Below are positions 17,480-32,135 of a stretch of 64,000 nt of DNA, one piece after another (positions within the stretch are counted from its first letter, which is position 1; each line of letters opens with the position of its first letter). Made by a program: the position numbers and the translations under genes. The DNA comes from a virus. Location: IMG/VR virus record IMGVR_UViG_3300032323_000894, positions 1 to 64,000 of that record. One strand, given 5' to 3'. The notes beneath the pieces are model-generated. The model ran no database searches. It was not told where the DNA came from and saw nothing but the letters and a program-made list of their open reading frames with translations.

Positions 17480-17835
17480 TGTCAATAAGTATTCTAGCTA
17501 GAACAGCTCCCACAAGTACTACTCCGTTTGCTTTGACGGCCAACCTATTGTCAGGCTCTACTGAAGCTGGAGTTCTGTCCTCACTGGTAGTCACTAACAC
17601 CACGTCTTTGCCTGTAGTGTACAGCGTGTACCTAATCTCTAGGAATGGCCCAGCTACTCCGTCAATAGAGAACGCCCTAGTATTTCAGCAGACAATTAAA
17701 AAGAACGAAGTAATAGACCTAACTTATGGTCTAACTTTAGGTTGGGGAAGTGGCACCCAAGATGTTATTTTTGTAGAATCAGGAACTCCTGACGCTCTAA
17801 CATTCACCGCATTTGGAAGTAAGGTCGCAATCTAA
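17479..17835 (+). CDS. Intact small beta-sandwich fibre module, paralogue
   Basis: A 118-residue protein closely patterned on the 110-residue protein at 15042. The patterns are SLVVTNTTSLPVVYSVYLIS, then ENALVFQQTIKKNEVIDLTYGLTLGWG, then DALTFTAFGSKVAI. It is the uninterrupted form of the module that frames the propellers in the 15374 protein, and especially the NALVF.QtIK segment is shared with it. It overlaps both neighbours by one base. It is probably a structural partner or alternative tip in the same fibre complex. Confidence 0.65.
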   Translation: MSISILARTAPTSTTPFALTANLLSGSTEAGVLSSLVVTNTTSLPVVYSVYLISRNGPATPSIENALVFQQTIKKNEVIDLTYGLTLGWGSGTQDVIFVESGTPDALTFTAFGSKVAI

Positions 17836-20012
17836 TGGCTATTAGACAGTCTAACGTATCTACTCTTTTTACTGCAGGACAGGGTGCCGCAGTTACACCC
17901 ATATCCAAGACTTACGTAGGTCAGTTTGCTCAGACTACTTATCTTGACAGATTCAAGATTCCTTCTGGACCTTACGTTGTAAACATGCAGATTCTAGGAA
18001 CTGAAGTTAACTCTGGTGTAGACATCAGGTTAGATAACCCTGAGGGTCAGTCAATTGCTAACTACAGGCTAATTAACACAGGTGTCACTACTACTAACTT
18101 TACAATTATGACAGACTACGTATTTTTAAATACTACCCCTGATAGGTTTGTTCCATCTAACCCTAATCTTACTTGGACTACCAGAACTTCTAACTTTGGA
18201 ACTACAAACATCAACGCTCTGGCGTTTGGTGATGATTTCTTCGCACCTGGAGTGTCGTCTGGACTGTTGTTGGCAGCAGGAGACAACACTCAGATAAGAA
18301 CTTCTACAGATGGCGTTACTTGGACTACTAGAACCACTACGTTTGCTACCCCTTCAGCCTCTCTTCGAGCAGCTACTTACGGTTTTAACGGAACCAACGG
18401 AGTCTACCTTGTTGCAGGTGACTCTGGTCAGATTGCTGGTTCTACAGATGGTCTTTCTTGGACTACTAGAGCTGCACCATTTGGAACTACAAACATTAAC
18501 GGTCTTGGATACGCTAACCGAATCTTTGTTGCCGTAGGTAGCAACGGAACTATCTGGACATCTGGAGATACCACTAGCTGGACAGGTAGAACATCTAACG
18601 TAGGAACTAACATTCTCCGTTCCGTTACTCACGGACTTGGTTTCCGTTGGGTTGCTGTTGGTGACAACGGAACAATCACTACTTCTGATGATTCGGCTGT
18701 TACTTGGACTGCAAGAACCTCTGGATTTACTAACAGCGATATTCTTACAGTTTGCTACGGCCGTGACAACACTTACGTTGCCGCAGGTACTCAGGGTCGC
18801 TTGGCTACCTCGTTTAACGGTGTTGACCAGTGGATTCAGAGAACTACTGGTTTTGGTACCGAGACAATTACTTCGGTAACTTATGGCGATGACATCTATG
18901 TAGCTGTCGGAGCTGCTGGAACCGTGGCCTCATCTGTTGACGGTATTACTTGGGTCAGACAGCCTTCAAATACTTGGGCTTCTACCCCTCTTCGCGCGGT
19001 TACTTGGGCGCCTATCGGAACTTCAACTGGTACTTACGTAACTTCTGGTGATGCAGGTACTCTGGCAACAGCGGTACCAGCTAGCACTGAGCGAGTTTCT
19101 GTCTCTAGATTGTTCGTTAACTTTAATGATGTTGGATTCATCGGTCGAGACGGTGTCTCAGGAGCAGTTACTTGGGCTACTGGTGGCTACGGCGATGGAT
19201 TGTTCTTTATCGGTGGTAGCGGTTCGACATTCTCTACTTCTACCAACGGCTTAACTTGGACAGCTCGAGGAAACGGACTCAGTGGAGATACCCGTGGAAC
19301 AGCTTTTGGTAACAACACCTATGTTTCTGCTGGAACTGCTGGCCGTGTAACCACTTCTACAGACAGCATTTCTTGGACTGCTAGAACTCCTAACTTTGGA
19401 ACTAGCGCAATCAACAGCCTTGTTTATGGAAATGGTCTGTTTGTACTCGCAGGTGAGGCTGGTCAAGTAAGAACCTCCGCAGACGCGGTTATCTGGACAA
19501 CTCGTGACGGTGGTTTTGGACCACAGACAGTTAACGCGCTACTTTACGCTAACTCTCAGAACCTATTTGTAGCCGCTGGAAACGCAGCAACAATTTCTAC
19601 CTCTACCAACGGTATTCTGTGGACATCACGTACTTCTGGTTACGCTGTAGACGTTAACCTTCGTGCGCTTACTTACGGAAATGGTTTGTACGTAGTTGCT
19701 GGAACTAACGGTAACTTGGCAGTTTCTACTAACGCAATTACTTGGACCACTAGAAACGCAAACTTTGGAACTAGCACCATTAACGCTCTAACTTTCCACA
19801 GAAACTTGTTTATGGCTGTAGGAGACGCTGGTCAGATTAGGACTTCAACCGACACTATTAGCTGGACATCTCGTGTATCAAACACTGGTGGTCAGTTCTT
19901 AGGCGCGGTGTCTGCTTTAGGAACCTACTTGGCAATCGGTGTTAGTGGATTGGTCCATTCAAAGCAGCAGGGTGCAGCCCTGGTTCAGTTCGCGCCAGTA
20001 GTTAGTAACTAA
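17835..20012 (+). CDS. Second double seven-bladed propeller adhesin
   Basis: A 725-residue protein. A beta-rich N-terminal module (residues 1-112, with IPSGPYVVNMQILGTEVNSG) leads into seven blades (about 113-410). A short connecting strand segment (ERVSVSRLFVNFNDVGFIGRDG) follows, then seven more blades (about 438-705) and a short closing strand (ALVQFAPVVSN). The blade core is the same as in the 15374 protein (TW..Rt.nFG...InaL.yg...fVaaG..G.i.TStdgi). The layout again suggests propellers inserted into loops of a sandwich module. It is probably a receptor-binding virion protein. Confidence 0.8.
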   Translation: MAIRQSNVSTLFTAGQGAAVTPISKTYVGQFAQTTYLDRFKIPSGPYVVNMQILGTEVNSGVDIRLDNPEGQSIANYRLINTGVTTTNFTIMTDYVFLNTTPDRFVPSNPNLTWTTRTSNFGTTNINALAFGDDFFAPGVSSGLLLAAGDNTQIRTSTDGVTWTTRTTTFATPSASLRAATYGFNGTNGVYLVAGDSGQIAGSTDGLSWTTRAAPFGTTNINGLGYANRIFVAVGSNGTIWTSGDTTSWTGRTSNVGTNILRSVTHGLGFRWVAVGDNGTITTSDDSAVTWTARTSGFTNSDILTVCYGRDNTYVAAGTQGRLATSFNGVDQWIQRTTGFGTETITSVTYGDDIYVAVGAAGTVASSVDGITWVRQPSNTWASTPLRAVTWAPIGTSTGTYVTSGDAGTLATAVPASTERVSVSRLFVNFNDVGFIGRDGVSGAVTWATGGYGDGLFFIGGSGSTFSTSTNGLTWTARGNGLSGDTRGTAFGNNTYVSAGTAGRVTTSTDSISWTARTPNFGTSAINSLVYGNGLFVLAGEAGQVRTSADAVIWTTRDGGFGPQTVNALLYANSQNLFVAAGNAATISTSTNGILWTSRTSGYAVDVNLRALTYGNGLYVVAGTNGNLAVSTNAITWTTRNANFGTSTINALTFHRNLFMAVGDAGQIRTSTDTISWTSRVSNTGGQFLGAVSALGTYLAIGVSGLVHSKQQGAALVQFAPVVSN

Positions 20013-20021
20013 GGAGTTAAA

Positions 20022-21371
20022 TTGGCCATTTCACAGATAGTTAACCCAAACCCAGTAACGGGTGTACCTGTTGGTACTGAGCTAGTTCACTCTAGCTACA
20101 TTAGGACCACTCAGAACAAGATTATTACTAAGGACCGAGTTCCTGCGTCTATTCCTCCTGGTACATACGCTGTTGTAGGTATGCGTACTCGTGGAGCGAA
20201 CAACGTTCTAGTTACTTTTAGGGATGCAGATGATGAGACGGTATTCGGCTATCCTGTGCTTCCTGCTGCCAGCAGGCTTCTTACCGAATTTCCGTCTAAC
20301 CAAGCTACTATGGTTCAGCTTATGGTTGTTGACAAAGAAGTAACCTCTGTAACTTACAACTACTCTTGGCAGAGTTGGACAGAGCGAACCCACTCTATGA
20401 GCACAACTACTGGCCATATCAATGCTATGGCTTATGCTAATGGTTATTTTGTTGCTGTGGGAAACAACGTCAACCAGTTCTCTGTCACTAACTCTTCTGA
20501 TGGAATTACCTGGACAGTAAGACTAAACAGCGCCGCCTCGGCCTCAGCGTTTGCTCTTACTTACGGAAATTACCGTGGAAATAAAACTTGGGTTGCCGCT
20601 GGTACTGGTGGAATTATTTTTAGCTCTACAGACAGCAACACGTGGATTCAAAGAACCTCCCCTACTGTACAGCAACTACAGGCTGCTGCGTTTGGTGTTT
20701 CTACATTCCTTCTAGCGGGAGCGTCTGGCGCACTCGTCAGCTCTACTGACGGATTTACTTGGATTAACAGAACCTCAGGATTTGGTGTTACTCCAATTAA
20801 CGCTTTGGTTTTTGGAAATGGCGTTTTTGCCATGGCTGGAGATGGAGGTAGACTTTCTACTTCTACAGACGGCATTAACTGGACTACTAGAACTTCAGGA
20901 TTTGCTACTACGTCTATTCGTGCCCTTGCATTTGGTAACGGGTTGTTCCTAGCTGGTGGAGATAACGGTGTCCTAACTACCTCAACAGATGCGATTACTT
21001 GGACTACAAGAAACGCAAACTTTGGTACCACCGTAATTAGGTCTATCATTTGGGGAGAAGGCCTTTACGTTCTTGCTGGTGATAACGGTTCAATTAGGGT
21101 ATCGACAGACGGCTATGAGTGGCAAGTTAGACCGCAGCTATTTACTGGTACCCAGATTAGAGCCCTAACTTACGGCTCTGGTATCGGTATTTTTAGTAGC
21201 CCAGTATCGGGTACTTTGCCTCCTCTTAACACCTACCCAGCTCAAATGACTCCTATCCTAGGAAACACAGGTGGCCAGTACATTGCAGCTGGAGGAAACG
21301 GTACTTCTGGAGGCCGTTTGGCCCAGTCTGAACAGGGATTTGAGGCGACAGTTCAGGTTTACAGAGTTTAA
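20022..21371 (+). CDS. Single seven-bladed propeller adhesin
   Basis: A 449-residue protein starting at TTG 20022, with AAGGAG 5 bases upstream. Residues 1-112 form a beta module (ASIPPGTYAVVGMRTRGANN ... YPVLPAASRLL) similar in layout to the start of the 17835 protein. Residues about 113-437 contain seven blades, the last one enlarged by a Pro/Gly-rich loop (VSGTLPPLNTYPAQM). The protein closes with FEATVQVYRV, likely the final strand of the N-terminal module. It is the third member of the propeller family and the end of its co-transcribed series. Confidence 0.78.
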   Translation: MAISQIVNPNPVTGVPVGTELVHSSYIRTTQNKIITKDRVPASIPPGTYAVVGMRTRGANNVLVTFRDADDETVFGYPVLPAASRLLTEFPSNQATMVQLMVVDKEVTSVTYNYSWQSWTERTHSMSTTTGHINAMAYANGYFVAVGNNVNQFSVTNSSDGITWTVRLNSAASASAFALTYGNYRGNKTWVAAGTGGIIFSSTDSNTWIQRTSPTVQQLQAAAFGVSTFLLAGASGALVSSTDGFTWINRTSGFGVTPINALVFGNGVFAMAGDGGRLSTSTDGINWTTRTSGFATTSIRALAFGNGLFLAGGDNGVLTTSTDAITWTTRNANFGTTVIRSIIWGEGLYVLAGDNGSIRVSTDGYEWQVRPQLFTGTQIRALTYGSGIGIFSSPVSGTLPPLNTYPAQMTPILGNTGGQYIAAGGNGTSGGRLAQSEQGFEATVQVYRV

Positions 21372-21395: not shown

Positions 21396-22073
21396 ATGGA
21401 TAAAAAACCACATGTAAATTTAATCATTGCAACACCTGGACACTCATTGATGTCAACTTACGTTCGCAGCCTTTTGGCTGCTACGCAGATGTTGGCCTCA
21501 AAAGGAATTACTTGGGCTTGGAGCTCAGAGTATTCCTCCCACGTAGCTGACGCTCGTGAAATGACTCTAAATGGCGACAACCAAAACGACCCTTCTGAGC
21601 AGCGTCCGTTTAAAGGCCAAGTAACCTACGATAAAATTCTTTGGATTGATTCGGACATTGCGTTTACTCCTGAAGACGTACTAAAGCTGTACGAGTCAGA
21701 CTACGACGTAGTTACTGGCGCGTACTTGCTGGCTAACGGAGAAGTTGTTGTCTACAAAGAGCTTTTTGGAACTGGCTACAACTACGATGATGTAAAAGAT
21801 ATGACAGAGCCAATAAAAGTATTCGGCGCTGGATTCGGCTTTATTATGATAAAGCAGGGCATCTTTGAACAGCTAACTCGACCTTGGTTTCAGTCACCTA
21901 TGGCATCAAAAACCATGGATGATGGAACCGAATTTACTTTCCCAATCATGGGAGAGGACCTTTCTTGGTGTAAGAGGGTCAACGACTTAGGGATTGACAT
22001 TTGGTTTGACCCTACAGTTCGTGTAACGCACCATAAAATGATGAAACTAACCTGGGAAGGAATTAAACCATGA
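21396..22073 (+). CDS. GT-A-type glycosyltransferase
   Basis: A 225-residue enzyme expected to transfer a sugar from a nucleotide sugar. The N-terminus HVNLIIATPGHSLMSTYVRSLL is a Rossmann-like opening. The DxD metal motif is in ILWIDSDIAF (about residues 84-93), followed by DYDVVTGAYLL, then GFIMIKQGIF and a conserved acidic GEDLSWCKRV. There is no membrane segment or signal peptide, so it acts in the cytoplasm. It lies directly after the propeller genes, so virion fibres or host glycans are plausible targets. A DNA-base sugar role cannot be excluded, but no base-modifying enzyme is seen nearby. Confidence 0.8.
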   Translation: MDKKPHVNLIIATPGHSLMSTYVRSLLAATQMLASKGITWAWSSEYSSHVADAREMTLNGDNQNDPSEQRPFKGQVTYDKILWIDSDIAFTPEDVLKLYESDYDVVTGAYLLANGEVVVYKELFGTGYNYDDVKDMTEPIKVFGAGFGFIMIKQGIFEQLTRPWFQSPMASKTMDDGTEFTFPIMGEDLSWCKRVNDLGIDIWFDPTVRVTHHKMMKLTWEGIKP

Positions 22074-22321
22074 GTAGATACCGCTACGAAGTTGATTCAG
22101 AAAACGCACTACGTTTCTGGGACGACGAGAATCCAAACGAGAACGACGCACCGTTCTTCTTCCAGCCTGACTACCCTAATGGCGAGCCATGGGGAACCAA
22201 GAAGGCTGCAGAAGACTGGGCAAAGCTATTTGTTGCATCACTAGAGGACCCTGAGTCTGCGCTAGTTCCTGGAGACTCTCCAGCAGAACCAAGCAAGCCT
22301 CGCCCTGTAGCTGCAGAGTAA
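22070..22321 (+). CDS. Small acidic hypothetical protein
   Basis: An 83-residue protein overlapping the glycosyltransferase stop by 4 bases (ATGA). It is acidic and Pro-rich (RFWDDENPNENDAPFFFQPDYPNGEPW, trimmed here to its first half for recognition of an aromatic/acidic patch at residues 14-40). One helix (KKAAEDWAKLFVASLED) is followed by a disordered tail. I do not recognise it. It may be a partner of the flanking glycosyltransferases or a small tail protein. Confidence 0.6.
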   Translation: MSRYRYEVDSENALRFWDDENPNENDAPFFFQPDYPNGEPWGTKKAAEDWAKLFVASLEDPESALVPGDSPAEPSKPRPVAAE

Positions 22322-22351
22322 CAACTACTTCACTCTAGATAAGAGGAGAGC

Positions 22352-23401
22352 ATGAAAGTAGCTGTTTATACCATTGCATTAAACGAACAACAGTTCGTAA
22401 AGCGTTGGGCAGACTCCTGTAAAGAAGCAGACTTCAGGTTTATTTTAGACACTGGGTCTACGGACGGTACAGTTGAGTCTGCCTACGCTAATGGTGTGGA
22501 TTGCATGATTGCATCCATCAAGCCTTGGCGATTTGATGACGCCAGAAACGCGTCTCTCGCGCTAATCCCTGACGACGTTGATTACTGCATTGCCTTGGAC
22601 ATGGACGAAGTCCTACTTCCAGGATGGCGAGAAGAGCTTGAGAAAGCCCACAAGTTGGGGTTGACTAGGCCTCGCTACAAGTACACTTGGTCTTGGAAGT
22701 CGGACGGAACTCCTGGCCTACAGTACGGTGGAGACAAAATCCACGCTAGAAACGGTTACAGGTGGAAGCACCCTGTACATGAAGTTATTACTTCAGACCG
22801 TATCGAAGAAAAACAAGGCTGGGTTGGATTAGAAATCCACCACTACCCAGACGATACTAAATCCCGTGGCCAGTATCTGCCACTATTAGAGCTCTCTGTC
22901 AGAGAAGACCCTTCAGATGACAGAAACGCCTATTACTTTGCTAGAGAACTTTTCTTTAACAGACAGTATGAACTAGCCGCCCAAGAGTTTGAGCGCCATC
23001 TTTCACTTCCTAGAGCTGTATGGCGACCAGAGCGAGCAGCCTCTATGAGGTACATCGCAAAGTGTAAACCAAAAGAAGCACGACACTGGTTAGAGAAGGC
23101 TACAGAGGAAGACCCTAACAGGCGTGAGGCGCTCGTAGAATTGGCTAACTGGGCCTACCAACACAAACAATGGGAGCTCTGCCTACAGTACTCTGAGAGG
23201 GCGCTGGAGGTCGCTGAGAAGCCTTTGGACTACCTCTGTGAGGAGTTTGCTTGGGGAGCCCTTCCATACGACCTAGCGGCGCTAGCGGCTTACAACACAG
23301 GTGATTTTAAAAAGGCTAAAAAGTACGGTGCAAAGGCTGCTGAACTAGAGCCAGCTGATGAGCGTTTACAGCGAAATCTAGAGTTCTATACAGGACAATA
23401 G
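22352..23401 (+). CDS. Family 2 glycosyltransferase with TPR-like C-terminus
   Basis: A 349-residue protein with a GAGGAG site. The GT2 domain (residues 1-~190) shows VAVYTIALNEQQFVKRW, the nucleotide-binding DTGSTDGTVE, and the metal-binding ALDMDEVLLPGW, the classic order for a GT-A inverting transferase. Residues about 200-349 are helical repeats (ARELFFNRQYELAAQEFERHL ... YNTGDFKKAKKYGAKAAELEP) of TPR type, often used to hold protein substrates. This architecture favours a protein glycosyltransferase. It is flanked by fibre genes, so virion proteins are plausible substrates. Confidence 0.85.
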   Translation: MKVAVYTIALNEQQFVKRWADSCKEADFRFILDTGSTDGTVESAYANGVDCMIASIKPWRFDDARNASLALIPDDVDYCIALDMDEVLLPGWREELEKAHKLGLTRPRYKYTWSWKSDGTPGLQYGGDKIHARNGYRWKHPVHEVITSDRIEEKQGWVGLEIHHYPDDTKSRGQYLPLLELSVREDPSDDRNAYYFARELFFNRQYELAAQEFERHLSLPRAVWRPERAASMRYIAKCKPKEARHWLEKATEEDPNRREALVELANWAYQHKQWELCLQYSERALEVAEKPLDYLCEEFAWGALPYDLAALAAYNTGDFKKAKKYGAKAAELEPADERLQRNLEFYTGQ

Positions 23402-23425: not shown

Positions 23426-23929
23426 ATGCCAGCAAAAGCAGTGATTCAATACCGCAGAGACACATCCTCTAACTGGACGGCAGTCAACCCAATTCTTGCA
23501 AGCGGTGAGCCTGGATATGAAACCAACACCACCTTTTTTAAGATTGGCGATGGCACCACTCCGTGGAACGCTCTTCCCTACAAAAAGGGTGACGACGGAG
23601 TAGATGCCCCAACTATTATTGGGTTTAATGACCAGACCGTAACTTCGTATACCTTAGCCTTGTCAGACAAAGACAAAATGGTTACTCTAGCCAACTCGTC
23701 AGCGGTAACTCTCCTAGTGCCTACTAACGCAGCAGTTCCGTTTGCAATTGGCACTACCATTAACATTCTCCAAGCAGGAACAGGACAAGTAACGGTCGCC
23801 GCAGTTACCCCTGGAACTACCGCAATTCGCTCCACTCCTGGTGTGAAATTACGCGCCCAGTGGTCCAGTGCTTCCTTGTTTAAGTGGAAAGCTAATGAGT
23901 GGATTCTTTCAGGAGACACCACACTCTAA
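23426..23929 (+). CDS. Tail fibre protein with Mtd_N-like N-terminus
   Basis: A 167-residue protein with an ACAGGAG site. Residues 4-52 repeat the Mtd_N-like pattern (IQYRRDTSSNWTAVNPILA ... FKIGDGTTPWNALPY). Residues 60-167 form a beta-rich domain common in phage fibres (DKDKMVTLANSSAVTLLVP ... INILQAGTGQVTVA ... WKANEWILSGD). It is the third Mtd_N-like gene in the window. It overlaps the downstream fibre start. Confidence 0.75.
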   Translation: MPAKAVIQYRRDTSSNWTAVNPILASGEPGYETNTTFFKIGDGTTPWNALPYKKGDDGVDAPTIIGFNDQTVTSYTLALSDKDKMVTLANSSAVTLLVPTNAAVPFAIGTTINILQAGTGQVTVAAVTPGTTAIRSTPGVKLRAQWSSASLFKWKANEWILSGDTTL

Positions 23930-25056
23930 TGCCACGCTTTTTCCTAGGCGGGGTATTCACTTCAGTCCGTGAAAGACTCGCGGACGCATTCGTGCGAGGT
24001 GATAGAGACGATTTAGGAGTAGCTCAAGACGGTAGCCTATGGACTAATATTCGTTCTGGATTAAGAATTTCAAATAACCGTGTAGTAGCTACAAACCCTG
24101 GTCAATTTCCTATGTCCACTATTGACATGCCCTCTACTAACGTAGACATCGCACTAACAGGTGTGACTCAGGGTGCTGGAGCGGCTATTTGGGTACAGAG
24201 CAGTGCTGATTGGACAGCAGTTACTATTGAACAAGAGTCTCGGGTTATTCCTCCTACTACCCAAACCCTAACAGGAACTTTTCAAACCTCTGCTAGCAAC
24301 AACTCCTTTACTTTTACACGGGAAGAGGATGTCCCATTTACCGACTTTGCTGGTGGTAATCCATTTACTGAAAATGGATTTAAACAAGTAACAAATAATG
24401 CGACTGGGTTTAGGAATGCTACTGGTAACTTTTTTTACACCTCACGGGTAAACTTTACGTATTTAGTTACGGGCACAGGCTTCTACACCTATGTGTCAGG
24501 TAAACCACCCAGAGTTCTTACGGGCTCATTTGTCTGGGCCAGAAACGCTACAGGAACTTACAGTATTACGGAAAGAGCACCGTACACATACAGAGAGTCG
24601 TTTACTTTTCAAGTAACAAACACAGTAGCCTGGTCTCGTACAGCGTTTAACGCTCTAGAGCCTTTTACTAATTACTTTACGCGGTCGGTTACGGAGTTTG
24701 TTCCTGGATTTAGTTTTACGGTGTTTGCTCCGTTTACCTACTCAGTAATAGTTCCAGAAACAACAGTTTTTGACCAAAAAGTTAGTATTCGACAATCTAT
24801 TGCTGGAAATATTCAGTTACTAACTTCGTGGGTAGTCTCTTCTAGCCAAGTAATTCGCTCTTTATTGGTGCGTACCCGAGGTAACGAAGTGACTGTTCGC
24901 CCGTATTCTGATGGAAACTTAGTAGCTCAAGTTGGCGACGACCTAGTATACACTGCTACTGGAGCTTCAGTTAATACGCGATTCGGTATAACCCTAGCTC
25001 CTTCCCCAAACAATCAAGGAAACACGGTAGCCACCACAGCTTCTATAACTACGTAG
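23929..25056 (+). CDS. LamG-like fibre protein with aromatic/Thr-rich insertion
   Basis: A 375-residue protein starting at ATG 23929 (CAGGAG upstream); the frame is open 30 bases further back but that start overlaps more. Residues about 10-100 (RGDRDDLGVAQDGSLWTNI ... STIDMPSTNVDIALTGVTQG ... WTAVTIEQESRV) and about 285-375 (RQSIAGNIQLLTSWVVSSSQ ... VRTRGNEVTVRPYSDGNLV) look like two halves of one concanavalin/LamG-type jelly roll. Between them is a roughly 180-residue segment of short FTF, FTY and YTY repeats rich in Thr, Asn and Arg, apparently inserted in a loop. It probably binds carbohydrate. Confidence 0.65.
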   Translation: MPRFFLGGVFTSVRERLADAFVRGDRDDLGVAQDGSLWTNIRSGLRISNNRVVATNPGQFPMSTIDMPSTNVDIALTGVTQGAGAAIWVQSSADWTAVTIEQESRVIPPTTQTLTGTFQTSASNNSFTFTREEDVPFTDFAGGNPFTENGFKQVTNNATGFRNATGNFFYTSRVNFTYLVTGTGFYTYVSGKPPRVLTGSFVWARNATGTYSITERAPYTYRESFTFQVTNTVAWSRTAFNALEPFTNYFTRSVTEFVPGFSFTVFAPFTYSVIVPETTVFDQKVSIRQSIAGNIQLLTSWVVSSSQVIRSLLVRTRGNEVTVRPYSDGNLVAQVGDDLVYTATGASVNTRFGITLAPSPNNQGNTVATTASITT

Positions 25057-25086: not shown

Positions 25087-25776
25087 ATGAAATTTATACA
25101 CTTTTTTTCAGACCCATCTAATAGGGACCTTGGAAAACCCATACCTATAAAACAAGTTTTACCAAAATGGTACAAAGAATCTGAGGCAACTTTTACTGCT
25201 GCTGATGGTTCAGAAGCAGCAGGTTTAAAAAAATGCGTACCTTTCTTAGACGCTATGATGAGTGGTTACACGCTAGTTCTGCCTGTGGACGTATTTGTCT
25301 CGGAAAATGTTGCTGGAGAAGTACAGATTAGATGGAACTCCCCAGATGAATTCCAAGAGTTTATAGGTCAAAGACCTTTTGAATCAGGCGAAAAAATACC
25401 TAGACCAGCAGGTCATCACCCAAATCACTTGGCTTGGAAAGGCACTTGGGGAATAAAAACTCCTCGAGGTTGGAGTGTGCTTGTTACTCACCCCCTAAAT
25501 AGATTTGACCTACCGTTTACTACTACCTCGGGAATTATTGACTCAGATAAATATTCTACAAGCGGAAATCTCCCATTCTTTATGAAGCAGGGCTTTACTG
25601 GGGTTATCCCTGCAGGAACTCCAATTGCTCAACTTATCCCCATAAAAAGAAGTTCGTGGACTGCGGTCTCGAATAACAGTGGGTTACAGTATTTAGAGCC
25701 CCTTCAAGGCTACGCCGTAAGAGACTTGGGAAACAGCTACAAGAAATACTTTTGGCAAAGAAAGAACTATCAATAA
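25087..25776 (+). CDS. Conserved phage protein, paralogue A, dUTPase-like C-terminal pattern
   Basis: A 229-residue protein paralogous to the gene at 26143. Shared blocks are lpKWYK, LKKCVPFLDAMMSGYTL.lp.DV, GWSVLVTHPLNRFDLPF, SGIIDSD and GFTGVIPAGTPIAQLIPIKR.SW. The last two are spaced like trimeric dUTPase/dCTP deaminase motifs (GxIDxDY and I..G..IAQL), but no catalytic Tyr/Asp context or Gly-rich tail is evident, so activity is doubtful. It may instead be a structural trimer built on the same beta-barrel. Function is unknown. Confidence 0.6.
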   Translation: MKFIHFFSDPSNRDLGKPIPIKQVLPKWYKESEATFTAADGSEAAGLKKCVPFLDAMMSGYTLVLPVDVFVSENVAGEVQIRWNSPDEFQEFIGQRPFESGEKIPRPAGHHPNHLAWKGTWGIKTPRGWSVLVTHPLNRFDLPFTTTSGIIDSDKYSTSGNLPFFMKQGFTGVIPAGTPIAQLIPIKRSSWTAVSNNSGLQYLEPLQGYAVRDLGNSYKKYFWQRKNYQ

Positions 25777-26168
25777 TGTACGGAAAAGATTACAAAAAAA
25801 AGTATGGTCCAGCGCTTCCTGGAAATAGCCTAAAGTTACTAGCAATTTTAAAGCACATCTTAATCACAAAGTATTTTACTAAAAAAGCTATGAAACAGTC
25901 AGTGTACTTAGACACTGCTTGGAAAGCAGAACTTCCTCGCCATACCCCAGAAAAAAAGTTAAACTACCTCGCAATAGTATACGACGGTGTAGTAGAAGAG
26001 ATGATTAGAGTAGATAGCATTACTGCCAAGTTCTTGTTGGGTGGGGCAGAGTTGGTTCTTTATGACCCAGAAACTACTGCGGTAAAGAAATCAATGAAGT
26101 ATGTAGACGGCAGCTTTATAGAAAATCCAGAGGAGGGTAAAGATGTTAAACCGACCAAAGAAAGTTAA
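25776..26168 (+). CDS. Hypothetical protein between the paralogue pair
   Basis: A 130-residue protein starting at ATG 25776, which shares its A with the upstream stop (taATG). An earlier in-frame start at 25752 is less likely. The N-terminal half is basic with a hydrophobic helix (LKLLAILKHILITKYF, about residues 18-33). The C-terminal half is beta-rich (LNYLAIVYDGVVEEMIRVDS, FLLGGAELVLYDPETT). I do not recognise it. It lies between two paralogues and overlaps the second by 26 bases, so the three likely work together. Confidence 0.6.
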   Translation: MYGKDYKKKYGPALPGNSLKLLAILKHILITKYFTKKAMKQSVYLDTAWKAELPRHTPEKKLNYLAIVYDGVVEEMIRVDSITAKFLLGGAELVLYDPETTAVKKSMKYVDGSFIENPEEGKDVKPTKES

Positions 26169-26805
26169 GTTTCAGTCTACTCAACCTACTTTTAGCCTAC
26201 CTACTCCTACGCCCACCTATAAGAATACTCCCGACTGGTACAGGCAAATGCCTGGTGTAGAGGGCACTGAAATGACCATTAAAAAATGCGTGCCATTCTT
26301 AGACTCTATGACTTCTGGATACACGCTCTACTTGGCAGCAGATGTAGAGTTTGTTAAAGATGGGTTTAAGACGTTTACTAAAGTCCCGACACTAACTGCT
26401 CATTATAAAGAGCAAACCTCAATGGTTCCTGTGCCGTCAGAGTATGACCCACAGCCTTACAAATGGGAAAACTTCTTTGTTATGACTACTCCAAAAGGAT
26501 ATAGCACTCTTTTTACTCACCCATTAAATAGGTCCGAACTTCCGTTTATGTCTATAGCGGGCATTGTAGATACGGACAATCATCCAATTCCAGTTAATTT
26601 TCCGTTTTTTATAAGAAAAGATTTTATTGGAATTATCCCTGCAGGAACCCCGATTATCCAAGCAATACCTTTTAAAAGAGAAACTTGGGTCTCTGAAGTA
26701 GACGAAGAAAACGGAGTTAAAGAGCACCCAGACCTACATAAAATGCACAACCCACCATTTGGCTTTTATAAAAAGCACTGGTGGTCTAGAAAGAGATACT
26801 ACTAA
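26143..26805 (+). CDS. Conserved phage protein, paralogue B, dUTPase-like C-terminal pattern
   Basis: A 220-residue paralogue of the 25087 protein with the blocks IKKCVPFLDSMTSGYTL, GYSTLFTHPLNRSELPF, AGIVDTDNHPIPVNFPFF and FIGIIPAGTPIIQAIPFKRETW. It has the same spacing of a GIVDTD motif and an IPAGTPI-Q motif. Divergence between the copies is highest in the middle and at the ends. It overlaps the upstream gene and is followed one base later by a glycosyltransferase. The function is unknown, and a role in fibre glycosylation or nucleotide-sugar metabolism is only a guess from context. Confidence 0.6.
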   Translation: MLNRPKKVKFQSTQPTFSLPTPTPTYKNTPDWYRQMPGVEGTEMTIKKCVPFLDSMTSGYTLYLAADVEFVKDGFKTFTKVPTLTAHYKEQTSMVPVPSEYDPQPYKWENFFVMTTPKGYSTLFTHPLNRSELPFMSIAGIVDTDNHPIPVNFPFFIRKDFIGIIPAGTPIIQAIPFKRETWVSEVDEENGVKEHPDLHKMHNPPFGFYKKHWWSRKRYY

Positions 26806-27794
26806 TGGAAACTATTTTTGTAGTTTTTCCAGCACTAGACGACCACGAAATCTTTGCAACCATAGAAGACGCATTTAAAAAAGCAGAACATCCAGAAAGA
26901 TTAGTTTTGGGGATAGCTCCTCTGTACTCTACTCGGAGGTACCTTAGAGATGTCAAAAAGTTTACAAAGAAATTTGGCAGTCAAATACGACTATCTGAAA
27001 TAAAGGTAACTGCTAAAAATATCTTTGAAACTTTAGGCGTGGGTAAAGGTAGGAGAGCTGCTGCAGATTTGTACGCGGGGGAAGACTACGTGCTACAGAT
27101 TGACTCTCACACTTGGTTTGCGCAAGGCTGGGACACTAGGCTTATTGGCCTACACAAACAGGCTGTAAAAGAACTGGGGCTAAGCAAAGTTCTTCTCACG
27201 GGGTATGCGGGGCACTACAAGTACTTTTCAAAGGATATTAGAGAGCCCTTTACAGACGACGGAAAACTAAGGTACCCGTTTATTAATGAGGAGCAAAGAT
27301 TTTCAAACATAATTCCAAACTGGTTTGACGTGCCCCTTCCAGACGACTGCCTTGATTCGTTTGTTCCTTCAGTAAAATTTAACGCAAACTTTTCTTTTGG
27401 AGACAGTAGTTTTGGGGAGTATAACGGGCTGTTAACTGAAGCCGTGTTTTTTGACGAGGAACTTACTCAGACAATAAACCTTACCGCTGCTGGATTTAAC
27501 TTAGTTTTCCCCAATATTAAAGAGCCTTTAATTTGCCATTTATATAGCGACCATTTTAATGAGTTTAGTGAAGCTAGGCCTAGCTTGCCTGACTACATGT
27601 CTCCTTTATTAGGTCAAGTTTTTCACAAAAAAACTAATGACAATTTTACGGCGTTTGTAAAAGACCCTAAAAACCAACCAGCAATAAAGAAGTGGGAAAA
27701 GTACGCTAAATGTAGCCTGACGTTTGGGCCCTTAAGAGCCAACTACGTGCCTGAGTACTACATAAACCAGCCTGATTCTGACCTGAAATTATAG
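26805..27794 (+). CDS. GlcNAc-transferase-like protein (GT60 type)
   Basis: A 329-residue protein with the signature of the glycosyltransferase GlcNAc family. These are GKGRRAAADLYAGEDYVLQIDSHTWF (about residues 78-103; a conserved arginine, the GED turn and DSH metal motif) and WDTRL, followed by a conserved central part with FGDSSFGEY. Eukaryotic GT60 members add GlcNAc to hydroxyproline or Ser/Thr of proteins. The phage member therefore may decorate a protein, such as the nearby Pro/Thr-rich collagen-like fibre. It overlaps the upstream stop by one base. Confidence 0.75.
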   Translation: METIFVVFPALDDHEIFATIEDAFKKAEHPERLVLGIAPLYSTRRYLRDVKKFTKKFGSQIRLSEIKVTAKNIFETLGVGKGRRAAADLYAGEDYVLQIDSHTWFAQGWDTRLIGLHKQAVKELGLSKVLLTGYAGHYKYFSKDIREPFTDDGKLRYPFINEEQRFSNIIPNWFDVPLPDDCLDSFVPSVKFNANFSFGDSSFGEYNGLLTEAVFFDEELTQTINLTAAGFNLVFPNIKEPLICHLYSDHFNEFSEARPSLPDYMSPLLGQVFHKKTNDNFTAFVKDPKNQPAIKKWEKYAKCSLTFGPLRANYVPEYYINQPDSDLKL

Positions 27795-28454: not shown

Positions 28455-30656
28455 ATGCCATTAAACAAACCCAACATCGGGCAGTCTAACTGGGGACCAG
28501 TGCTCAACGATGCCCTAGATTACCTAGACTCCAAAGAAGTCTCTGCTGACACTGCTGACTTTGTATTCAGTGAAGACAACTCTGAAGGCTCTCGCAGCAC
28601 GATGACCATCACTGACCACGACATGACTATTCAGACTGTTCGTGATGAAGATTCAGTAGGTTCAGACTGCGACATAAACATTGAAGCAGCTGACGATGTA
28701 TTTATCCGTGCCTACGGAGATGACATTGGTATTTATGCAAGCAGTGAAGTTGAAATTAGAACTAATAATTATGATGGACAGGGACTTGGAGACGGTGGTA
28801 ATGACTCACACTCCTGGACGTTCAATAAAAATGGACACATCGAGTTCCCAGACGGAACTGTCCAAACTACCTCTGCTCAAGGAATTCGTCCTCTTCCAGA
28901 TTTCCTCACATGGAGAGAAGGAACAACTCATCTTCCAGCACTAAACACAAACTTTGGCTGGAACTCTGACGGCGTTTGGTTTCAGAATGCACAAGACGAA
29001 GGAGCAGTCAGCTCCTACCCAATCTATACAGACTTTACTGTTGCACAGAATGAGCCTGTAATTGTTGAATTTGACTTTGATGCCAACACCGAGTGCAATG
29101 ATATTGGCGTTTGCGTTTATGTAGATGGAACAACCCCACAATGGGATTGGAGTCCAAACACAACAAGAATTGCTGCACAGTTTGATTGCTTCAACCTAGA
29201 GCTTGTTGGTCGCACAACAGAGGTAACTGTTGGAGAGGGAGAGGGTATACCAGGCGAAGGAATCTACACCGTTACCTTTACATACAACCCAACAGCATCT
29301 ACTGACAAGGTAACTGTTTCCTACAAGGCACAAGGCTCCAGCGAGGTTATTGCATCACTCAGCCTCAATGAGGCTCTACCTGCTGGTCGTTATCGAGTTG
29401 GCTTTGCAGCAGACCAAAGTTCTTCAAATACAAAAACCTACATGTCTAACTTGTCAATTGATGTCAACAACGATGATGATTTTTACAGCAACGACCTACA
29501 GGATGGCAACTCTGGATTTACATCTGACACAGACCTTGTTATCCCAGTTGCTATCAAGGATGACAACGGCGATGACTTCATCACCTTCACAAGAACCTCT
29601 ACAGGCACTGCTCGTATTGCAACCCCACAGGACGACCTATCACTTCGCTCTGCAAGAGACATCACGCTCTTTGCTGGTAGCGAAGGTCCAGGAAACGTCT
29701 ACATTGGCTGGGGAGACGCAGAGCTCACTCCAGACGCAAGCAACCGAGTTGCAACCATTGCGGACGTTACAGCAGCAACAGGTCTTGGAGACATTACTTT
29801 TGATGGTGTAAAGATTACTGGCGCTGGCACTGCCTCTGGCGACGGACTTGGTGCTGGGACTATGGAATTGGTTCCAGACGCAGACCTATACGCCAATGAC
29901 CAATACCTAGTTATTGACCCAACTGACCCCAACCACATCCACATTCGTGCTGGTGGTGCAATGGATGAGTCCAACGCAAAAGTTATTCTTGGTGGAGAAA
30001 GAAACCACGTTTATGTCTCTGATGGTAGCAGACAAGTTTCAATTCGTACAAGACCAGCAAGAATTGAAAATACCTATGCAAACGTAAACGAAGCAAGCAG
30101 CACAGAGTTTATGGCACCCATGCCAATAATCGTTTCTGTTGGCTATACCGTTACCGTTGGTGAGACTGACTACGAGGTAACAGCAGTTACCCCTAATTCT
30201 CCGTATGAAGGTATGGCAACTGTTACAGCAACTGGAGCATCCTTTGTATCAGGAACTTCATATACATTTAGCTATGAGGAATCATACGACAACTACTGGC
30301 AGTTTAACTCAGATGGATACCTGTATGGACCTGCAATGGGTGGTCTATTTGTTTCAGGCCTTCTTAATGGAGAAGGTGATTTATGGCTTTCGTCAAACGA
30401 TAGCGTTGTTCTTAATGGCAATGAAGGTGGGGAGTTCCTAGGAAATCCAGAATTTCCTGGAAACCAGATTGCAAAACTAGATGATTTAGCCTACCTTCGT
30501 ACTAACGTTCCAACAACTTCTATAGGACTTCCTGGAGAAGTTGCTGGCCTTGTTGCAGACGATGCAAACTATCACTACTACTGCACAGCAGCCTACGACG
30601 GCACTACCCACATTTGGAAGCGTGTCGCCTGGGACGCTGGAACTTGGGGAGATTAG
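28455..30656 (+). CDS. Long tail fibre protein
   Basis: A 733-residue fibre. The opening PLNKPNIGQSNWGPVLNDALDYLDSK is the N-terminal anchoring module seen in many phage fibres. Next come beta-helix-like repeats (IEFPDGTVQTTSAQG, a common fibre signature), a carbohydrate-binding-like domain (about residues 150-345, FVQNAQDEG..., VIVEFDFDANTECNDIGVCV) and repeated FDG/ITGAGT and VYVSDGSRQVSIRT strands. The C-terminus has IGLPGEVAGLVADDANYHYYC and closes with TTHIWKRVAWDAGTWGD, a receptor-binding-type end. Leucine codons look richer in CTC and CTT than in neighbours, which may mark a recent acquisition. Confidence 0.82.
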   Translation: MPLNKPNIGQSNWGPVLNDALDYLDSKEVSADTADFVFSEDNSEGSRSTMTITDHDMTIQTVRDEDSVGSDCDINIEAADDVFIRAYGDDIGIYASSEVEIRTNNYDGQGLGDGGNDSHSWTFNKNGHIEFPDGTVQTTSAQGIRPLPDFLTWREGTTHLPALNTNFGWNSDGVWFQNAQDEGAVSSYPIYTDFTVAQNEPVIVEFDFDANTECNDIGVCVYVDGTTPQWDWSPNTTRIAAQFDCFNLELVGRTTEVTVGEGEGIPGEGIYTVTFTYNPTASTDKVTVSYKAQGSSEVIASLSLNEALPAGRYRVGFAADQSSSNTKTYMSNLSIDVNNDDDFYSNDLQDGNSGFTSDTDLVIPVAIKDDNGDDFITFTRTSTGTARIATPQDDLSLRSARDITLFAGSEGPGNVYIGWGDAELTPDASNRVATIADVTAATGLGDITFDGVKITGAGTASGDGLGAGTMELVPDADLYANDQYLVIDPTDPNHIHIRAGGAMDESNAKVILGGERNHVYVSDGSRQVSIRTRPARIENTYANVNEASSTEFMAPMPIIVSVGYTVTVGETDYEVTAVTPNSPYEGMATVTATGASFVSGTSYTFSYEESYDNYWQFNSDGYLYGPAMGGLFVSGLLNGEGDLWLSSNDSVVLNGNEGGEFLGNPEFPGNQIAKLDDLAYLRTNVPTTSIGLPGEVAGLVADDANYHYYCTAAYDGTTHIWKRVAWDAGTWGD

Positions 30657-30667
30657 GAAAGGTAAAA

Positions 30668-30856
30668 ATGGCAGAAAAGAAAAAGAAATCAGCTAAAAGA
30701 ATTGGTCACATTGCAGGTAAGAATCCTGAAAAAGCTATTAACCTAGGCTTAACGGGGTCTAAATACCACGGTGGAGGCTCTAAGAATAGGGGTAAAAAAG
30801 GCGGAATTATCCGTAAACCTACCGCCCCTATTAGGTACAGAAAGAAAAGTGATTAG
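30668..30856 (+). CDS. Lysine-rich small protein 1
   Basis: A 62-residue protein starting at ATG 30668, with TAGGAAAGG upstream. It is very basic (MAEKKKKSAKRIGHIAGKNPE ... GSKNRGKKGGIIRKP) with a glycine-rich centre and no hydrophobic core. It is first in a run of ten small genes (30668-32767). Nucleic-acid binding or condensation inside the virion is plausible from composition alone. Confidence 0.65.
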   Translation: MAEKKKKSAKRIGHIAGKNPEKAINLGLTGSKYHGGGSKNRGKKGGIIRKPTAPIRYRKKSD

Positions 30857-30864
30857 GAAATAAC

Positions 30865-31167
30865 ATGGCAGAAGCAAAAAAGTCAAGTAAGAAGGACCCT
30901 CGCCTAGCTAGAGCTGGCGTATCGGGCTATAACAAACCTAAGGCTACCCCTGGAGCTAAAAAGTCTCACGTAGTAGTGGCCAAAGAAGGTAACCAGATTA
31001 AGACTATTCGTTTTGGTGAGCAGGGAGCGGAAACTGCTGGTAAGCCAAAGGCTGGAGAGTCTGAGCGCATGAAGGCTAAGCGCAAGAGCTTTAAGGCTCG
31101 TCACGGAAAGAACATTGCTAAGGGAAAGATGTCAGCAGCATACTGGGCTGACAAGGTGAAGTGGTAA
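30865..31167 (+). CDS. Lysine-rich small protein 2 with KARRKSFKARH-type motif
   Basis: A 100-residue protein containing RLARAGVSGYNKPKATPGAKKSHVVVA, IKTIRFGEQGAETAGKP and ERMKAKRKSFKARHGKNIAKG followed by SAAYWADKVKW. This set of blocks recurs in phages and in some giant viruses, usually as a stand-alone domain of unknown function. Net charge is strongly positive. The stop overlaps the next start. Confidence 0.7.
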   Translation: MAEAKKSSKKDPRLARAGVSGYNKPKATPGAKKSHVVVAKEGNQIKTIRFGEQGAETAGKPKAGESERMKAKRKSFKARHGKNIAKGKMSAAYWADKVKW

Positions 31168-31370
31168 TGGCTGCCTCTAAACCAAAGCCAAAGCCAAAGG
31201 CTAAGTCAAAAGTAAACGAAGCTGGAAACTACACTAAGCCTGGAATGCGCAAATCTTTATTCAATAAGATTAAAGCTGGCACTAAGGGTGGCGACCCAGG
31301 GGAATGGTCTGCCCGTAAAGCACAGCTACTAGCATCTGAGTACAAGAAAGCTGGCGGAGGCTACAAGTAA
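31167..31370 (+). CDS. Lysine-rich small protein 3 with GEWSARKAQLLA motif
   Basis: A 67-residue protein starting at ATG 31167, which shares its A with the upstream stop; an in-frame start at 31161 is less likely. The N-terminus is a Lys-Pro repeat (KPKPKPKAKSK). The C-terminus KAGTKGGDPGEWSARKAQLLASEYKKAGGGYK matches the pattern of DUF5872-type proteins of phages and large DNA viruses. It is probably a nucleic-acid or partner-binding microprotein. The function is unknown. Confidence 0.65.
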   Translation: MAASKPKPKPKAKSKVNEAGNYTKPGMRKSLFNKIKAGTKGGDPGEWSARKAQLLASEYKKAGGGYK

Positions 31371-31612
31371 TGGCTCTAGCTAAGTCTCAGAAGTCCCTTA
31401 AGAACTGGACTGACCAGAAGTGGAAAACCTCCGACGGTAAACCGTCTAAGGGTAAAAAACGCTATCTACCTGAGAAAGCTTGGGCTGAGTTATCGCCTGC
31501 AGAAAAGGCCGCTACTAATAAAGCTAAGGCCGCTGGAAATAAAAAAGGCAAACAGTTTGTAGCTCAACCTAAGAAGATTGCTGAAAAAGCAGCAAAGCAC
31601 AGGAAGTCATAA
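31370..31612 (+). CDS. Lysine-rich small protein 4
   Basis: An 80-residue protein with SLKNWTDQKWKTSDGKPSKG, KRYLPEKAWAELSPAEKAATN and GKQFVAQPKKIAEKAAKH. These blocks form a small conserved viral domain seen in several phages as a separate gene. It is basic, has no Cys or membrane segment, and overlaps both neighbours by one base. The function is unknown. Confidence 0.65.
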   Translation: MALAKSQKSLKNWTDQKWKTSDGKPSKGKKRYLPEKAWAELSPAEKAATNKAKAAGNKKGKQFVAQPKKIAEKAAKHRKS

Positions 31613-31893
31613 TGGCAGAAACTAAGAAGTTTGGCCCATACAAGGGGTCTAAGGCTAATGGTGGTAGGCCTATCTATGTCTATAAGACTAAGAACGCTAA
31701 AGGCGAATGGGTAACCACATCCAAGAATAAGGCTCGTGCAGACTACGAGGCTAAGAATGGTAAGTTGCCTAGAGACACAGATGTTGACCACAAGGACAAC
31801 AACAAAAAGAACGACTCTAAGAGTAATCTAAGAGCTCTAAAGCACGGTAAAAACACGGCTAAAGAGAACAAACGACGGGTAGGAAAGAAGTAA
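31612..31893 (+). CDS. HNH-type small protein
   Basis: A 93-residue basic protein with the HNH core DTDVDHKDNNKKNDSKSNLRAL (about residues 55-76; the H of DHKD, the central N, and N of SNLR) and then HGKNTAKENKRR. HNH nucleases nick or cut DNA using a metal ion. The family includes homing-type and packaging-linked enzymes. Here the domain is embedded among lysine-rich microproteins, so a DNA-processing role linked to packaging or head maturation is possible. No zinc Cys pairs are present. Confidence 0.75.
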   Translation: MAETKKFGPYKGSKANGGRPIYVYKTKNAKGEWVTTSKNKARADYEAKNGKLPRDTDVDHKDNNKKNDSKSNLRALKHGKNTAKENKRRVGKK

Positions 31894-32135
31894 TGGCTAA
31901 AAATCCTAAATTAGTAAGAGCAGCTGCAAAAACAAACGCAAAACAAGCAAAAATGGAAGTTTCTAATCCTTTACAGTACAACAACGTAGGCATGGGTAAA
32001 GCGCCCAAAGGCCAAACAAAAGCAGCCAAGCTTTTTATGAAGACTATGTCGTCAGATAAAAAAGGCTACGTAGCTAAGCAAGTAGACAAAGCAGTTACTA
32101 AAACTGCAAAGAAGATGAAAAAAGGCGGAAAGTAA
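31893..32135 (+). CDS. Lysine-rich small protein 5
   Basis: An 80-residue basic protein with many Lys and Ala (RAAAKTNAKQAKMEVSNPLQ ... KQVDKAVTKTAKKMKKGGK). A central YNNVGMGKAPKGQTKAAKLF is less charged. The ending resembles histone H1-like Ala/Lys tails. Its stop TAA shares an A with the next start. The function is unknown. Confidence 0.6.
   Translation: MAKNPKLVRAAAKTNAKQAKMEVSNPLQYNNVGMGKAPKGQTKAAKLFMKTMSSDKKGYVAKQVDKAVTKTAKKMKKGGK

Follow-up and report, generated by a model that had tools for sequence, protein, structure and literature searches.

Genes A and B of the phage studied here encode two paralogous proteins that are predicted to adopt the beta-barrel fold of the trimeric dUTPases. 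Part of the dUTPase active site is replaced in them, so they probably handle a different small molecule. The interpretation that we favour is that A and B keep the dUTPase fold around a remodelled ligand pocket, form trimers, are probably enzymatic and have a ligand other than dUTP; we regard this as an even call. Together with a small middle gene, A and B form a cassette in the window (the whole stretch of viral DNA that was analysed, 64,000 nucleotides in length), which belongs to a virus record of 75,649 bases.

Gene pair and sequence features

Trimeric dUTPases are homotrimers with active sites shared between the subunits, and their conserved motifs form a numbered series from 1 to 5. Motif 1 is of the AGxDL type with its Asp, motif 2 is PRS, motif 3 is GxIDxDYxG, motif 4 is RIAQ with its Gln and motif 5 is the glycine-rich C-terminal arm.

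Gene A is located at positions 25087–25776 of the plus strand and encodes 229 aa, while gene B is located at 26143–26805 of the same strand and encodes 220 aa. The description of both as PHROG 7084/DUF6065-like is based on the ORFs and profile matches, in addition to the AlphaFold2 model for A and to the tree and BLASTP for B. The two proteins share 36% identity (BLASTP E 7e-46) and are true paralogues. No further copy was found in the rest of the virus record. The ORF pair had been described in a first-pass annotation with three sequence blocks common to both proteins, and coordinates, strand and all three blocks were confirmed.

The N-terminal block KKCVPFLDxMxSGYTL is KKCVPFLDAMMSGYTL in A (residues 48–63, positions 25228–25275, plus strand) and KKCVPFLDSMTSGYTL in B (residues 47–62, 26281–26328, plus strand). 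In A it includes the invariant residues C50 and G60, and it resembles dUTPase motif 1 but does not match it. Further along protein A, profile alignment places HPLNRFDLPF (residues 135–144, 25489–25518), GIIDSD (residues 149–154, 25531–25548) and IPAGTPIAQLIPIKRSSW (residues 174–191, 25606–25659) on dUTPase motifs 2, 3 and 4, respectively, all on the plus strand. The corresponding positions in B are occupied by HPLNRSELPF (residues 126–135, 26518–26547), GIVDTD (residues 140–145, 26560–26577) and IPAGTPIIQAIPFKRETW (residues 165–182, 26635–26688), again on the plus strand. The spacing from GI[IV]D[ST]D to IPAGTPIxQxIPxKRxxW is 25 residues from start to start in both proteins. The earlier claim that both proteins end with these blocks holds for the blocks and their spacing and fails for the C-terminal position, since each protein continues for 38 residues past the IPAGTPI block. 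This extension features a conserved YKKxxWxRKxY; in A, the motif YKKYFW (residues 218–223, 25738–25755, plus strand) is found where a dUTPase has motif 5.

Middle gene and paralogy

The middle gene (25776–26168, plus strand) encodes 130 aa and is conserved as a partner of A and B. In the ORF list it begins further upstream, with a TTG at 25752, but its start is more likely to be an ATG at 25776 that shares one base with the stop codon of A, as is also the case in many relatives. A relative of the middle gene sits between an A- and a B-relative in 52 of the 53 loci holding one, a set in which the window region occurs three times and some contigs are duplicates or overlap; the remaining locus, L033, begins at a contig end. 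Across the cassette loci, the stop and start codons of A, middle gene and B overlap or almost overlap. Hence, the gene is not the orphan for which it had been taken. The model of the middle protein has a pLDDT of 75 overall and of more than 90 across most of residues 61–110. VIA-align gave no match for it among 76 chains, and its top matches in BFVD were uncharacterised phage proteins only. This lack of a match in model comparison does not demonstrate a new fold. None of the three cassette proteins matched an entry in NCBIfam or PADLOC.

A tree of 106 proteins, calculated with a quick method and SH-aLRT support in place of bootstrapping, groups all A rows in one clade (SH-aLRT 99) and all B rows in another (96), and these are not sisters. 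A and B therefore belong to distinct, ancient lineages, and the pair does not originate from a recent duplication in this phage. Four loci (L053, L055, L056 and L059) have a third paralogue of about 281–289 aa after B, of which the one in L055 scores over the DUF6065 cut-off.

Predicted fold

The AlphaFold2 model of A, built from a 135-sequence alignment, reached a pLDDT of 94.2 and a pTM of 0.88. When compared with the PDB using Foldseek, the best 50 rows were all dUTPases or dCTP deaminases, with two dCTP deaminase entries (2yzj and 4xjc) and one row (6h4c_G) that carries a repressor-complex title. The 50 matches listed by VIA-align were dUTPases with Z values of 8.6 to 9.7. Among them are the phage dUTPase 3zf0 and 3ecy, of which all 119 residues were covered (Z 9.0, rmsd 3.2). 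In a viral structure library, the top nine matches were unnamed or uncharacterised and the next named matches were dUTPases. The Foldseek TM-scores are low when normalised to the query (0.24–0.43), to which the greater length of A relative to a dUTPase contributes, and reach 0.66 at best when normalised to the target.

Profile-profile alignment supports the fold independently of the model. Comparison of the family with dUTPase yielded a score of 31.8 (P 2.5e-4), in register over motifs 2–4, and placed GIID and GTPIAQ on motifs 3 and 4. The dUTPase profile behind this score was obtained by adding ten phage dUTPases to 11 alphaproteobacterial sequences; the earlier profile of these 11 gave a weak local match only (E 0.035). 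The best of 60 column shuffles scored 17.9 and the reversed profile 20.0, while the known relatives dUTPase and dCTP deaminase scored 66.4 in the same procedure. As 31.8 lies above the controls and below this benchmark, the link to dUTPase is real but remote. The Pfam profile PF00692 matched neither A nor B up to E 1, nor anything else in the virus record, and one relative (L069) showed a weak direct match below the cut-off (E 0.015). A PDB search with the sequence of A yielded a single chance-level match (E 0.31), and the 135-row profile yielded none. We consider the predicted dUTPase fold settled as far as prediction can settle a fold. A dUTPase-like barrel had been guessed in the first-pass annotation, with structure prediction and profile-profile search proposed as checks, and both turned out in its favour.

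Conserved and lost residues

Residues were counted in 138 family sequences, namely a 135-row alignment, HSTV-2 gp40 and two cyanophage proteins. For the alignment, 232 ORFs matched the family profile, 145 passed filters for length, score and redundancy, and 133 were combined with A and B. The 21 control dUTPases consist of the 11 of 12 PF00692 loci that a motif-3/4 pattern picked up (all but L167) and 10 phage records. Motif 1 was found in none of the 138 family sequences vs 18 of the 21 controls, and motif 5 in none vs 20 of the 21, a control that is conditional on motifs 3 and 4, by which the dUTPases were picked. The absence of the dUTPase tail, already remarked upon in the earlier annotation, is thus borne out.

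At the position of motif 2, Pro is kept in 138/138 sequences and Ser is replaced by Asn (N138) in 131/138. At motif 3, D154 is present in all 138 sequences and D152, aligned to the catalytic Asp, in 126, with another residue in the other 12; the positions of the motif's Tyr and Gly show no conservation of these residues. The Gln of motif 4 is kept (Q182, 134/138). C50, G60, P136, D154 and T178 are invariant, and K48, R188 (135/138) and Y218 (137/138) are almost so. The two cyanophage proteins, which were found by tblastn, lack K48, N138, R139 and D152. A and B retain all scored residues, with the sole exception of D141, which is Glu in B.

Since short patterns taken from the same motifs served to retrieve the sequences, some of these counts are inflated. 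Viral rows were fetched with GIVD and YKK patterns and bacterial rows with KxC and HPxNR patterns, so that cross-counts are fairer: K48 and C50 are present in 99/99 and N138 in 94/99 viral rows, D154 and Y218 in 34/34 and D152 in 29/34 bacterial rows. The near-invariant polar residues are located at or near the positions of motifs 2–4 and form the same set in phages and bacteria. The N-terminal KxCxP..D....G block and the C-terminal Y[KR]K motif are conserved along with them.

Compared to trimeric dUTPases (PF00692), A and B are alike in the predicted beta-barrel, the register and the polar residues at the positions of motifs 2–4. They differ in being longer (220–229 aa), in lacking motifs 1 and 5, in conserving other residues, including C50, H135, R139, D154, R188 and Y218, and in being encoded by tandem paralogues that have a small gene as partner. 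An assignment as canonical dUTPase was rejected, since motifs 1 and 5 are missing in 138/138 sequences. The dCTP deaminases (PF22769) share the fold group of the A model (2yzj and 4xjc), but hhalign scored the family profile against them at 11.2 vs 66.4 for the control dUTPase, and on this negative profile comparison dCTP deaminase was rejected as well. The Pfam DCD search gave no match.

Relatives and distribution

Both proteins match PHROG 7084 over almost their full length (E 5.9e-37 for A and 4.3e-39 for B; PHROG 7084 has no curated cut-off). Matches to DUF6065 (PF19541) are weak: A (16.6 bits) and B (21.1 bits) fall below its cut-off of 26.6 bits, which is exceeded by relatives in L089 and L055 and by HSTV-2 gp40. 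Based on sequence similarity, A and B are assigned as members of PHROG 7084 and relatives of DUF6065, both of which are listed without a function in the libraries used. The literature searched, mostly open access, contained no mention of DUF6065 or PF19541 and no titles on the family.

A tblastn search of 50,697 phage records found matches in 51 records each for A and B, and in 52 with a wider query; for each protein, these were mainly haloarchaeal viruses of the HF1/HSTV-2 type and two cyanophages. A profile-derived scan yielded 320 relatives in viral contigs, of which the best 80 were kept, and 78 loci in genomes, almost all labelled Alphaproteobacteria. In an even draw of Alphaproteobacteria, 9 of 142 genomes had a match, including the centre genome, which was chosen for having one, and two weak matches. 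The family thus ranges over haloarchaeal viruses, cyanophages, environmental phages and Alphaproteobacteria.

Genomic context

The gene directly upstream of A (23899–25056, plus strand) belongs to a cluster present in 40 non-redundant viral loci. It has no Pfam, NCBIfam or PHROG match, and its adhesin-like appearance is an impression only. Directly downstream of B, a glycosyltransferase of the GlcNAc family (PF11397; 26805–27794, plus strand) belongs to a cluster present in 24 viral loci. Three glycosyltransferase-like genes, one with TPR repeats, surround the cassette (21396–23401 and 26805–27794). Two large tail-region ORFs (17835–21371) consist of short repeats of the AYGNGLYVVAGxxGxxxxSTNxxTWT type, which appear beta-propeller-like by eye, and a run of small lysine-rich ORFs of 69–100 aa (30614–32135) has relatives in L001. 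A tail sheath gene is found near the cassette, with Streptomyces phage BRock as its best-ranked phage match.

In phage loci, family members are neighboured by tail-fibre-like genes and tailoring enzymes. A scan of 86 of 105 listed neighbour proteins (the 19 left out were mostly the recurring upstream and middle genes) found PF11397 glycosyltransferases (7), Methyltransf_24 (7), Trp halogenases (3), thioredoxins (3), sulfotransferases (2) and APS kinases (2). The neighbour clusters were formed after leaving out 18 loci as near-copies and by single linkage, so large clusters may mix families. A flavin-type tryptophan halogenase (PF04820) adjoins the family member in L060, L067 and L071, and a sulfotransferase and an APS-kinase-like gene do so in L069 and L077. 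In L057, the member adjoins a tail-collar protein. The relative in HSTV-2 directly follows thymidylate synthase, that in S-RIM4 is downstream of ribonucleotide reductase, and that in HF2, a virus which also carries a true dCTP deaminase, is near ribonucleotide reductase and adjoins a tail-fibre block. The neighbours do not point to any one pathway, as the partners differ from lineage to lineage.

Of the 78 bacterial loci, 54 hold a gene of a TPR-protein cluster and 31 a gene of an ABC-permease cluster, the latter at a median position of −1. Some bacterial members are coupled to a PotABCD-like transporter. In Shimia thalassica (L144, 1347–6720), the family member ends a polyamine/phosphonate-type ABC transporter operon and is followed by a convergent TPR gene. 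The gene order is substrate-binding protein, ATPase, two permeases and family member, which overlaps the last permease by 4 bases; the best scores of the transporter proteins were to spermidine/putrescine and 2-aminoethylphosphonate models, all under the cut-offs. Canonical dUTPase was also present in 11/11 tested bacterial genomes with the family gene. Together with the dCTP deaminase of HF2, this indicates that the role of the family is not redundant.

Proposed role and alternatives

The best reading is a ligand-handling protein, probably an enzyme, given that the dUTPase tail is lost, a set of polar residues is strongly conserved and members outside viruses are found behind transporter genes. 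A and B would be two anciently separated members of PHROG 7084 with a trimeric-dUTPase beta-barrel, assembling as dUTPase-like homotrimers or as mixed A/B trimers. Their rebuilt inter-subunit pocket would bind a small ligand and probably alter it chemically; plausibly, the ligand is a phosphorylated or nucleotide-like compound other than dUTP, and the middle protein is a putative accessory of the pair. The trio is surrounded by genes for glycosyltransferases and tail-fibre-like proteins, so that what it makes is most likely used to tailor the surface or the virion and does not enter the nucleotide pool. Speaking against this interpretation are the 12 sequences with a residue other than Asp at the D152 position, the four conserved residues lost from the cyanophage proteins and the variation of the neighbours among lineages. 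Going further, PHROG 7084 may be a separate enzyme class on the dUTPase barrel with a non-dUTP metabolite, common to phages, haloarchaeal viruses and Alphaproteobacteria, and forming in this phage group an obligate two-paralogue complex with a small partner. Its rebuilt site would comprise the invariant Cys, Lys, DxD, TPxxQ, Arg and a C-terminal Tyr-Lys arm. We put this extended version forward tentatively.

The alternative that survives best, although we judge it unlikely, is a structural or chaperone role, in which the barrel is part of the virion or helps to assemble trimeric tail fibres, and A, B and the middle protein serve the tail-fibre-like product encoded just upstream. It draws on the loss of motif 5, the recurrent upstream gene near tail-fibre-like genes, the tail-collar neighbour in L057 and the tail-fibre block in HF2, and the tail-fibre genes near the cassette in this phage fit it too. 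However, the same residues are retained in Alphaproteobacteria, where no virion is involved, and the HF2 relative (HrrHF2_475) is the gene of neither VP1 (HrrHF2_495) nor VP3 (HrrHF2_590), two of the four major virion bands (PMC7230728). No phage structural protein with a "dutpase fold" was found in the mostly open-access literature searched. Polar conservation, transporter neighbours and nucleotide-metabolism neighbours are more in keeping with ligand binding or catalysis than with a part of the virion. Of the first-pass reading, the fold prediction and the loss of motif 5 are supported, while reuse of the barrel as a structural or binding trimer is weakened by polar residues that are near-invariant from phages to bacteria and by the bacterial members behind transporters.

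A regulatory binding protein, with the pair sensing a nucleotide-like ligand and binding a host or rival-element protein as staphylococcal phage dUTPases do, appears improbable. Phage dUTPases with regulatory binding roles are described in PMC5593958 and PMC5608427, for example, and such an enzyme is among the closest structures (3zf0), but no repressor or mobile-island partner was seen in the adjoining genes, and bacteria retain the residues in settings that involve no phage. We regard mere sequence drift of a still active dUTPase or dCTP deaminase as very improbable. In its favour are the fold, the partial motifs 2–4, genes for thymidylate synthase or ribonucleotide reductase close by in some of the viruses, and the failure to find a canonical dUTPase in the window's record and in 13 of 14 other viral records. 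Against it, motifs 1 and 5 are missing throughout, profile similarity to dCTP deaminase is lacking, canonical dUTPase is already present in the bacteria and the pair sits in a late tail region.

These results supply a fold prediction for a widespread viral and bacterial family and name residues that can be put to the test. If A and B are enzymes, as we favour, they would represent a dUTPase barrel adapted to new chemistry in the tail and surface-tailoring gene clusters of phages; if they are structural, they would represent a new viral use of a trimeric enzyme fold.
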